The notes below the pieces were generated by a model. It was not told where the DNA came from. It did not search any database and saw nothing but the letters and a program-made list of their open reading frames with translations. A DNA stretch of 64,000 bases from Rhodospirillales bacterium (GTDB lineage: Bacteria > Pseudomonadota > Gammaproteobacteria > Nevskiales > Nevskiaceae): positions 1 to 64,000 of the forward strand of contig CAJCJH010000043.1 in assembly GCA_903970615.1 (NCBI GenBank), written 5' to 3'. A program made the translations under genes and the position numbers. Below are positions 2,611 through 6,835 of the stretch, in pieces (position 1 is the stretch's first letter; each line of letters begins with the position of its first letter).

Positions 2611-2997
2611 ATGCTGGCCCTGATGATGGATTCCCTGCTGGTCTCAACGATGGATTGTCTGCATGCGATTGTCGACGCCCTGATTCCCGCCGCCTACGCG
2701 CAAGCGGGAGCGCCGCCGCCGAATCCGATCATCACCTTCTTGCCGCTGATCGTCGCGGTGCCGGTGATCTACTTCCTGATGATCCGCCCGCAGCAGAAGC
2801 GCTCGAAGGAAATGCGCGACATGCTCGGCAAACTGGCGAAGGGCGACGAACTCATCATCACCGGCGGGCTGGCCGGCCGGGTCGCCGCGATCGGCGAGGT
2901 TTATCTGACCCTCGAAATCGCCGACAACGTGCTGGTGAAAGTGCAGAAGTCCGCCGTCGCCAGCGTGCTGCCGAAGGGCACACTGAAAAGCCTCTGA
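2611..2997 (+). CDS. yajC: YajC, Sec translocon accessory subunit
   Basis: YajC is a small single-span inner-membrane protein that associates with SecD-SecF at the SecYEG translocon. The 128-aa product has a membrane segment at about residues 41-58, then the conserved MIRPQQKRSKE and a C-terminal domain with ITGGLAGRV and VLPKGTLKSL, as in E. coli YajC. The N-terminus is about 15-20 residues longer than in E. coli, so an internal ATG at 2650 is also possible. It stops 1 base before the secD ATG. The usual upstream neighbour tgt is absent; a divergent acyl-CoA dehydrogenase lies there instead. Confidence 0.95.
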   Translation: MLALMMDSLLVSTMDCLHAIVDALIPAAYAQAGAPPPNPIITFLPLIVAVPVIYFLMIRPQQKRSKEMRDMLGKLAKGDELIITGGLAGRVAAIGEVYLTLEIADNVLVKVQKSAVASVLPKGTLKSL

Positions 2998-2998
2998 A

Positions 2999-4861
2999 AT
3001 GCAGCGCTATCCGCTGTGGAAACCGGTTTCGCTGTGGCTGGCACTGCTGATCGGCGGGCTTTATGCCGCGCCGAATCTGTTCGGCCAGGACCCCTCCGTG
3101 CAGATCACCACCGCATCCGGCGATCCCTTGCCGGCGACTTTCGGCGCCGATGTCGATAAAGCGCTGAGCGACGAGAAGTTCACGCCGAAATCGTCGAAAC
3201 TCGAAGACAAGCAATGGATCGTCCGCTTCGGCGATACCGAAACGCAGCTGCAGGCGGCTGAAGCCTTGAAGCGCGATCTCGGCAACGGCTACGTGGTGGC
3301 GCAGAATCTGGCCTCGAAAACGCCAGCGTTTCTGGAAGCGATCGGCGCAAGGCCGATGGCGCTCGGGCTCGATCTGCGCGGCGGCGTGCATTTTCTGTTG
3401 CAGGTCGATCTGGAAGATGCCAAGAAAGCTGCGGTGCAGCGCTATCTGAACGATCTGCCCGCGTTCCTGCGCAAACAGGACATCCGCTACAGCGGCCGCC
3501 GCGCCAATGGCGATGCGGTGGAGTTCGAGTTCGCCGATACCGACAAGCTGCAAAAAGCGCAGGCTGCATTATCGAAGGAATACCGCGAGCTGGCGTTCAC
3601 GGTGCCGCCGAATAGCGCAACGCCGACGCTGCAGGCGCGCTTGTCGGTGGAAGAACTGAAGCGCATCAACGACAACGCGGTGCAGCAGAATCTGCTAACG
3701 CTGCGTAATCGCGTCAACCAGTTCGGTGTGGCCGAACCGCTGGTGCAGAAGCAGGGCGCCGACCGTATCGTCGTCGAACTGCCGGGCGTGCAGGACACCA
3801 CGCGGATCAAGGAATTACTCGGTGCGACGGCAACGCTGGAATATCGCGCGGTCGACGATATTCCCGGCGCGGCCGAATCGGCCGCCGCGACCGGCATCGC
3901 GCCGCCGGGCGATACGCTGTATTACACGCGCGATACGCATCGCCCGGTGCTGCTGAAAAACGATGTGATCGCCAGCGGCGCGCAGCTTACCGACGCCACG
4001 CCGACGGTCGATCAGCAGAGCGGCACACCCGCAGTGAGTGTGACGCTGGATGGCCCTGCGGCGAGCAAGATGTTCGATTTCACCAGTCATAACGTCGGCA
4101 AACCGATGGGCGTGCTGTTCAAGGAAACCGACATCAGCACCAGCTACAACGCGAAAGGAGAAGCGTTGCGTGAGCGCCGCGATGTCGCCGATGTCATCAA
4201 CGTCGCCAGCATCCGCGAGCCGTTCGGCCGGCGATTCCAGACCACTGGTTTGCAGCAGGCCGAAGCGAAGAAACTTTCCGAGCTGCTGAAAGCCGGCGCG
4301 TTGGCGGCACCGATAGAGATCGTCGAGGAACGCACCGTCGGCCCCAGCCTCGGCGCAGACAACATCCGCAAAGGCACTTATGCGGCCGTCGCCGGCTTCG
4401 TGCTGGTGGTCACGTTCATGGCGATTTACTACAGCGTGTTCGGCCTGTTCGCCGATGTCGCCCTGCTGCTGAACGTCGTGCTGATCGTCGCCATCCTGTC
4501 GATCCTGCACGCCACGCTGACCATGCCCGGCATCGCCGGTATCGTACTGACGCTCGGCATGGCGGTGGACGCCAACGTGCTGATCAACGAACGCATCCGC
4601 GAAGAATTGCGCGCGGGGTTATCGCCGCACGCGGCGATGGACGCCGGCTACAACCGCGCGTTCCTGACGATTGCCGATTCCAACCTCACCACCTTGATCG
4701 CCGCCGTCGTGCTGTACGCGCTCGGCAACGGACCGGTAAAAGGTTTTGCGATTACGCTGGCGATCGGTCTGGCGAGCTCGATGTACACCGCAACCGTCGG
4801 CACCCGCACGATTGCGCATTACGTGTTCCGCGGGCGTAAGCTAAAAGACTTGCCGGTGTAG
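2999..4861 (+). CDS. secD: SecD, protein translocase subunit
   Basis: SecD uses the proton gradient to pull exported proteins into the periplasm late in Sec translocation. The 620-aa product has an N-terminal membrane anchor (residues 10-25), the D1 motif LGLDLRGGVHFLLQVD at about 122-137, and a large periplasmic P1/head region. The C-terminal membrane domain carries TLGMAVDANVLINERIREE, the conserved D5 region. The length matches the E. coli protein (615 aa). It follows yajC directly. Unusually, secF does not follow immediately: a 184-aa gene of unknown function lies between. Confidence 0.98.
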   Translation: MQRYPLWKPVSLWLALLIGGLYAAPNLFGQDPSVQITTASGDPLPATFGADVDKALSDEKFTPKSSKLEDKQWIVRFGDTETQLQAAEALKRDLGNGYVVAQNLASKTPAFLEAIGARPMALGLDLRGGVHFLLQVDLEDAKKAAVQRYLNDLPAFLRKQDIRYSGRRANGDAVEFEFADTDKLQKAQAALSKEYRELAFTVPPNSATPTLQARLSVEELKRINDNAVQQNLLTLRNRVNQFGVAEPLVQKQGADRIVVELPGVQDTTRIKELLGATATLEYRAVDDIPGAAESAAATGIAPPGDTLYYTRDTHRPVLLKNDVIASGAQLTDATPTVDQQSGTPAVSVTLDGPAASKMFDFTSHNVGKPMGVLFKETDISTSYNAKGEALRERRDVADVINVASIREPFGRRFQTTGLQQAEAKKLSELLKAGALAAPIEIVEERTVGPSLGADNIRKGTYAAVAGFVLVVTFMAIYYSVFGLFADVALLLNVVLIVAILSILHATLTMPGIAGIVLTLGMAVDANVLINERIREELRAGLSPHAAMDAGYNRAFLTIADSNLTTLIAAVVLYALGNGPVKGFAITLAIGLASSMYTATVGTRTIAHYVFRGRKLKDLPV

Positions 4862-4887
4862 CGCATCCACGGCGCACAGGATCAGCC

Positions 4888-5442
4888 ATGAGCGTTGAGC
4901 TTTCGTACGAAACGATCGAGCCGGTGCTGCCGTATGTTGCAACACAATTGGTCGCCGAAGCCGCTGCCCTCGCGCGCGAATACGACTGGTGGTGCGAGCC
5001 GCTGAAAATCGCCGCGAATGCATCCGGCCGGCTCGGCGGCACTACCAGAATGTTTCTGGGCCGATATCTGCCGAAGAGCGGCGCCGAAGTGATCGAGGTC
5101 GTCGACGACGAAGAATGGCTGATGATCTGGAGCGACGTCACCTTCGTCATCGCGCGCCTGTCGCTGTGGTCGCTGAAATACCAGCTGAACTGGAAGCTGA
5201 GTTCGGAAGGCGATCCGGTCGGCAAAATTCTCAATGGCACGCAGGATGAGCGAATCAGCACTTTCGTTCAGGGGTTGCGCTCGGTGTCGTCGCTGGCCGA
5301 CGATCAGGTGGCGGTGATTTCACACAAATACGCGAGCCGGAAAACGCCCTTCCTGCCGCGATTGATCCCGTCGAATATTTCCGTGCCGCAACGCAATCTG
5401 GACATGCTGTTTCCGGACAAACCCTGGTGGAAGATCTGGTAG
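4888..5442 (+). CDS. Unrecognised protein encoded between secD and secF
   Basis: The 184-aa product is not recognised. AGGA lies 7 bases before the ATG, so the start looks sound. There is no signal peptide or clear membrane span. The protein is rich in aromatic residues (EYDWWCEP near 31-38, SLWSLKYQLNW near 92-102) and ends in PDKPWWKIW. Acidic and hydrophobic stretches alternate, suggesting a compact soluble alpha/beta domain. It lies 26 bases after secD and 115 bases before secF, in the same direction, so it is probably cotranscribed. The codon choice and GC content look similar to its neighbours by eye. A role in export is guilt by association only. Confidence 0.75.
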   Translation: MSVELSYETIEPVLPYVATQLVAEAAALAREYDWWCEPLKIAANASGRLGGTTRMFLGRYLPKSGAEVIEVVDDEEWLMIWSDVTFVIARLSLWSLKYQLNWKLSSEGDPVGKILNGTQDERISTFVQGLRSVSSLADDQVAVISHKYASRKTPFLPRLIPSNISVPQRNLDMLFPDKPWWKIW

Positions 5443-5557
5443 GCCGCGCATTCAAAACCCGGTAAAAAGCCGCGTCTTGCGACTGCTGCGTTGGTCCGGC
5501 GCTGCCTCAATCCGAGCCTTCATCTGAAATTGTTTCACTTCATCATCGAGATCAAAC

Positions 5558-6523
5558 ATGCGTCTTTTTTCCCGCGTTCCGAACATCGACTTCATGGCGC
5601 AGCGCAAGCGCGCGCTGGTGCTGTCCGCCGTGCTGACGATTGCCGCGCTGACCTGCCTGTTCACCCGCGGGCTGAACTTCGGCATCGACTTCAAAGGCGG
5701 CGTGCTGGTTGAAGTGGTGTACCCGCAGGCGGTCGAACTCGACCCGATGCGCGATGCGCTGAAGACCGTTGGTTATCCGGATGCGATTGTGCAATATTTC
5801 GGCGGCACTTCGGATGTGATGATCCGCCTGCTGCCCGAAGCGAACGCGAGTTCGGCCGATATCAGCAGCAAGGTTTTGCAGGCGTTGGACGCGAAGGACA
5901 ACAAGATCGAACTGCGCCGCATCGAATTCGTTGGTCCGCAGGTCGGCGGCGAATTGCGCGAGGATGGCGTGATCGCGGTGGTCGCAGCACTTGCTCTGAT
6001 TTTCGCGTTCGTGTGGTTCCGCTTCGAGGCCAAATTCTCGGCCGGTTCCACCGCTGCCTTGATCCACGACGCGATCATGACGGTTGGGTTCCTGTCGCTG
6101 ATCCAGGAAGAATTCGATCTCACCGTACTCGCCGGCCTGCTGGCGATGCTTGGCTATTCCAACAACGAGACCATCGTCATCTTCGATCGTATCCGCGAAA
6201 ACCTGCGCGCCTACCGCAAGAAGCCGGTGCTCGAAGTCATCAACCTGTCGATCAACCAGACGCTGCTGCGTTCGATCATCACCCACTTCACGGTGTTGAT
6301 GGTGCTGTTCGCGCTTTTCTTCTTCGGCGGAAAAAGCGTGCATGGCTTCGCGGTGGCGATGATCGTCGGCGTGCTGGTCGCTACTTATTCTTCGATCTAC
6401 GTCTCCAGCGGCGTCACCGTATTGCTCGGCGTTACGCACGAAGACTTGCTCACCGCAGAGGAAAAGGAAGGCGCTTCCGGCTTGGCCAAACGCAAGGCGG
6501 AAAACGATGGCGCTGTGGTTTAG
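5558..6523 (+). CDS. secF: SecF, protein translocase subunit
   Basis: SecF is the partner of SecD in the inner-membrane SecDF complex. The 321-aa product has membrane segment 1 at about 18-36, the conserved LNFGIDFKGGVLVEV (39-53), a short periplasmic head, and five C-terminal spans. Between these spans lies GYSNNETIVIFDRIRENLR, which carries the conserved Asp-Arg family signature. The length is typical (323 aa in E. coli). It closes the yajC-secD-unknown-secF unit and is followed by a terminator-like hairpin. Confidence 0.98.
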   Translation: MRLFSRVPNIDFMAQRKRALVLSAVLTIAALTCLFTRGLNFGIDFKGGVLVEVVYPQAVELDPMRDALKTVGYPDAIVQYFGGTSDVMIRLLPEANASSADISSKVLQALDAKDNKIELRRIEFVGPQVGGELREDGVIAVVAALALIFAFVWFRFEAKFSAGSTAALIHDAIMTVGFLSLIQEEFDLTVLAGLLAMLGYSNNETIVIFDRIRENLRAYRKKPVLEVINLSINQTLLRSIITHFTVLMVLFALFFFGGKSVHGFAVAMIVGVLVATYSSIYVSSGVTVLLGVTHEDLLTAEEKEGASGLAKRKAENDGAVV

Positions 6524-6568
6524 TCTGCCCTTGAGTCGGGCAGCCGCGCGTTTCGCGCCACGCAAATA

Positions 6569-6604
6569 AAAAACCAGCGGCGAAATCCATCACCGCCGGT
6601 TTTT
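6569..6604. terminator. Bidirectional intrinsic terminator after secF
   Basis: A 12-bp stem with one mismatch (AAAAACCAGCGG against CCGCCGGTTTTT) flanks a 12-base loop. The T-run on the plus strand and the A-run, which becomes T on the minus strand, allow termination in both directions. This fits its place between convergent secF and the small minus-strand gene. Confidence 0.7.
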
Positions 6605-6616
6605 CCGTTCTGAAAC

Positions 6617-6835
6617 TCAGCTTTTCTTCAAGGCGCCGCCGAGCACCAGAACGCCGCCGATGACGATGGCGGAAATGCCGAGCCATTGCGGAGCGGTTTT
6701 ATCCTTCTCGACGCTGGCCGAAAAGCTGCCGACCTTGGCGACTTCCTCGTCCTGCTTTATGTGCAGCTTGCCGGCGACGGAGGCAATGCCGAGTGCCGCG
6801 ACAATGACGCCGATGATGATCATCGTGAATTTCAT
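6617..6835 (-). CDS. Small two-span membrane protein, DUF3185-like
   Basis: The 72-aa protein has two hydrophobic segments, at about residues 4-22 (MIIIGVIVAALGIASVAG) and 52-68 (LGISAIVIGGVLVLGGAL). A short charged hydrophilic stretch (IKQDEEVAKVG...EKDKTAPQ) joins them. The size and layout resemble the DUF3185 family of bacterial inner-membrane proteins, whose function is unknown. It stands alone between the secF terminator and suhB. Confidence 0.7.
   Translation of the reverse strand: MKFTMIIIGVIVAALGIASVAGKLHIKQDEEVAKVGSFSASVEKDKTAPQWLGISAIVIGGVLVLGGALKKS

Follow-up and report, generated by a model that had tools for sequence, protein, structure and literature searches.

The product of the gene described here has no match to a described family, and the closest described systems are the operon in which it sits and the surroundings of its one homologue. 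The first is the yajC-secD-secF operon, whose SecDF product is membrane and periplasmic (PMC8669966). The second is the polyimmunity locus, presented in PMC3482391 as an array of small immunity genes lying in the same direction, with no toxin genes among them; arrays of SUKH genes are given there as the most frequent homogeneous type. In the window (the whole 64,000-nucleotide stretch that was analysed) yajC, secD and secF are present and follow one another as they do in the two nearest relatives, except that an additional gene stands between secD and secF. A search of the literature for a gene in this position returned nothing evidently relevant in the parts of the sources that it covered.

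The secDF operon and its insert

The features of the locus are listed in Table 1. All of the genes lie on the same strand, with spacers of 26 bases between secD and the inserted gene and 115 bases between the inserted gene and secF, and an AGGA located 6 bases 5′ of the ATG is, by eye, a putative ribosome site. The arrangement described in the sequence-only reading—a 184-aa gene on the secD strand, 26 bases after secD and with its own ribosome site—is therefore borne out.

Table 1. Features of the secDF region; coordinates are those of the window.
Feature	Coordinates	Strand	Description
yajC	2611–2997	+	Pfam PF02699, 2.2e-25; TIGR00739, 1.2e-24
secD	2999–4861	+	TIGR01129, 461.5 bits (cut-off 244.4); Pfam also above cut-off
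Inserted segment	4865–5541	+	Not present in the nearest relatives, where the site is empty (blastn, L039 and L038)
Inserted gene	4888–5442	+	184-codon ORF; ATG start, TAG stop; product without family match
Spacer, inserted gene to secF	5443–5557	+	115 bases; the last 16 (5542–5557) align to the G006 secF leader
secF	5558–6523	+	TIGR00966, 299.6 bits (cut-off 160); Pfam also above cut-off

The window was compared with two close relatives, G017, which is the nearest by SecF (92% identical), and G006. Nine window genes match in order in G017, from a gpx-like to a cysE-like gene, and five match on the G006 contig, up to the contig end inside secF; gene names in these comparisons were read by eye, except for yajC, secD and secF. 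The distance from the secD stop to the secF start is 28 bases in G017 and 27 in G006. In the alignment with G006 the window matches as far as 4864 and the match resumes at 5542, with 677 bases standing where G006 has 8, so that 'inserted' was an apt description; against G017 the unaligned stretch of the window is 4858–5546. The joints of the insert are sharp: the gene ends that flank it are intact, and the secF leader is preserved. No convincing target-site duplications or inverted repeats bound the insert, and no second copy is present in its own genome, a 126-contig draft. No promoter-like or terminator-like site was found in 4700–5700, and no RNA family was found in the window at gathering score. 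Downstream of the gene, the non-coding remainder of the insert (5443–5541) is likewise single-copy in the genome, and neither a promoter, a terminator nor an RNA family was recognised in it; the GC content of 5443–5557 is 53%, compared with 61% for the window.

The region beyond secF also differs between the two genomes, with about 2.3 kb following it in G017 (L038:4195-6499) and about 0.1 kb in the window (6522–6624). By eye, the additional G017 DNA has two plausible genes, a PadR-type regulator-like gene (5638–6231, + strand) and a nitronate monooxygenase-like enzyme gene (4579–5559, − strand), which suggests that the end of the operon undergoes other gene gain or loss too.

The gene and its product

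The length of the open reading frame is weak evidence by itself, since 190 of 20,000 mononucleotide shuffles of the 696-base secD-secF gap give a stop-free run of at least 184 codons in the forward frames. The gene is made convincing by a distant homologue that aligns from the first methionine with a local alignment score of 190, where the best of 2,000 shuffles reached 59; the methionine common to both proteins also supports the start site of each. The gene is thus confirmed as real at the position given in Table 1.

Codon use and composition were compared with those of 37 window ORFs of at least 250 codons, picked mechanically. The codon-use score of the inserted gene, 0.27, falls within the range of these ORFs (0.039–0.376, n = 37), and its GC3 of 0.757 is close to those of secD (0.791) and secF (0.786), in agreement with the native codon use noted by eye in the sequence-only reading. 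That reading had also called the protein aromatic-rich and soluble-looking, and both descriptions stand: aromatic residues make up 10.9% of the 184 amino acids, exceeding 34 of the 37 window ORFs, and the Kyte-Doolittle mean over 19 residues never exceeds 1.38, so that no membrane segment is obvious. The tryptophan content of 4.9% exceeds that of 36 of the 37, and the product is small, soluble, acidic and Trp-rich. A structure predicted from the single sequence (mean pLDDT 38.2, pTM 0.30) was too poor for a fold search.

Searches of Pfam, NCBIfam, PHROGs and PADLOC gave no family match, the best Pfam score being that of DUF5472 (E 0.19; 12.2 bits against a cut-off of 25), and a match to a described Imm or SUKH family was likewise lacking. 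No relative was found among the sequences of solved structures, where a first search gave two matches, both with E > 1, and a second gave none. Searches of genome contigs, viral contigs and phages gave no homologue, and the sole homologue in all of the searches is a single plasmid record, from Variovorax paradoxus.

Distribution and the Variovorax homologue

A secF match was obtained in 40 relatives, and the secD-secF joint was inspected in 29 of these—each of the 17 other sampled members of the genus, plus 12 more genomes from the family and order—with the other 11 left out. secD lies directly before secF in all 29, with gaps of 3–164 bases, and none of them has the gene at this joint; retention of the position among relatives was the check proposed beforehand. 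Scans for the 184-aa protein matched its own genome alone among 41 relatives (0 of the 40 others), among 85 genomes of the order (0 of the 84 others), and in samples of the class (n = 369) and the phylum (n = 398), although these scans use short peptide patterns that may miss distant relatives, and absence is thus not shown. Neither 399 genomes of one further family nor one single-genome genus gave a match, in scans that included no known-positive genome.

The longer spacers at this joint are those of G001 (L004; 102 bases), G012 (L005; 118 bases) and G009 (L008; 164 bases). In the first two, short GAGGCGAGAGG / CTCTCGCCTCCCGCC-like repeats occur in runs; the third looks partly palindromic by eye. 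The window has no copy of a 14-base form of the repeat motif, even with two mismatches allowed.

The homologue is an unannotated 148-aa ORF at 760411–760857 of a 1.19 Mb plasmid of V. paradoxus SPNA7 (NZ_CP138514.1), with 31% identity over 86% of the query (E 6e-10). The two proteins are homologous from the first methionine and have DWWxE, LxGxxR and WSxxYxxxWxLS blocks in common, but the Variovorax protein is without the Trp-rich C-terminal tail of roughly 30 residues found in the window protein, and its gene lies in a plasmid island outside any sec operon, with no sec gene seen in the stretch inspected around it. It has no Pfam match at E 0.1 or better.

The island (about L037:23.3–36.1 kb) is unannotated and composed of small genes, and begins with an IS481 transposase. 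Its ORFs have GC3 values of 0.54–0.77 (0.81 for the transposase) and the flanks mostly 0.82–0.93; these ORFs were picked by a simple GC3 script, and a few of those in the flanks are doubtful. Two SUKH (SMI1/KNR4) genes score above the Pfam cut-off; the first starts 105 bases downstream of the homologue in the same direction, and the second is about 7 kb further. The 18 distinct island proteins scanned include these two, one Sir2 (a short ORF) and the transposase; the remaining 14, among them the homologue, have no Pfam match above the curated cut-off. The genes run in one direction (+ strand) as far as about 33.2 kb and in the other (− strand) beyond it.

With its small genes, two SUKH members and a nearby transposase, the island is suggestive of a heterogeneous polyimmunity locus as portrayed in PMC3482391. 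It fits that published picture only in part, because it switches direction part-way, and it differs further in that its other genes are mostly without identification and that neither the homologue nor the window protein matches a Pfam family. The window copy differs from it in being solitary and inside a housekeeping operon.

Origin and possible function

Whatever its kind, the gene is very probably a passenger within the secDF operon, and it was found in its own genome alone. It would be a rare accessory gene, acquired horizontally, that landed cleanly between secD and secF after the split from the sampled relatives; no donor was found. Because its codons are used much as they are elsewhere in the window, the acquisition would be either not very recent or from a similar genome. 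It has its own putative ribosome site and, with no promoter or terminator seen, is probably transcribed within the yajC-secD-secF message, where it would have no role in SecDF. Overall the sequence-only reading is partly supported, its passenger alternative being supported, with presence in a single genome and a homologue away from secDF, and its partner alternative finding no support in the distribution or in the homologue's context.

That the passenger is a rare, horizontally acquired gene and tentatively an immunity-type protein is a reading that we hold at somewhat less than even confidence. The immunity-type role is our leading guess at function, offered tentatively, and is favoured because the only relative found adjoins a SUKH gene in a polyimmunity-like island. 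The protein might act in the cytosol, where it would bind a toxin delivered by competing bacteria and so neutralise it. The argument is one of guilt by association and passes through a single homologue, most of whose scanned island companions have no Pfam match and whose island is of mixed direction; the window copy stands alone, and no toxin gene was tied to it or to the homologue.

At close to an even chance, the passenger is instead an ordinary rare accessory protein, such as a plasmid or phage orphan, and no immunity protein. The lack of a match in the four family libraries and among solved structures points this way, as do the dependence of the immunity clue on one locus and the results from the gene's own genome, where neither the type VI secretion sheath gene VipB nor SUKH was found by models that were positive in control genomes (the toxin-system search covered these two, with Rhs, CDI and other delivery systems outside it). 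The SUKH gene next to the sole homologue, within an island of small genes, argues against it, and so does the lack of a match in phages or viral contigs.

That the protein is a SecDF partner particular to this lineage, as the sequence-only reading also suggested, or a regulator of SecDF, is disfavoured and very unlikely. The position inside the operon, on the same strand, with its own putative ribosome site and native codon use, counts in its favour, but the reading fails because the homologue lies away from secDF and the gene is present only in its own genome: it is at 0 of 29 joints, has no match in the 84 other genomes of the order, and its sole homologue is on a Variovorax plasmid with no sec gene seen around it. 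The protein also has no obvious membrane segment, although it might touch SecDF from the cytosolic side. An assembly chimaera, with the segment belonging elsewhere, would be in keeping with a draft of 126 contigs and with the absence of the segment from every relative, but is most improbable given the sharp joints, the intact gene ends and secF leader, a composition like that of the window, and a single copy in the genome.

To return to the passenger reading in its immunity-type form, a bolder version, which we think unlikely, is that the protein founds an immunity-type family, new and very rare, whose members spread one gene at a time by insertion into housekeeping operons that are expressed; here it would use the secDF message for constitutive expression.

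The gene says little about the working of SecDF. The locus offers a clean case in which a conserved operon has taken in a rare gene and close relatives show the site without it, and if the guess of immunity is true, an undescribed family would be added to toxin-immunity repertoires.
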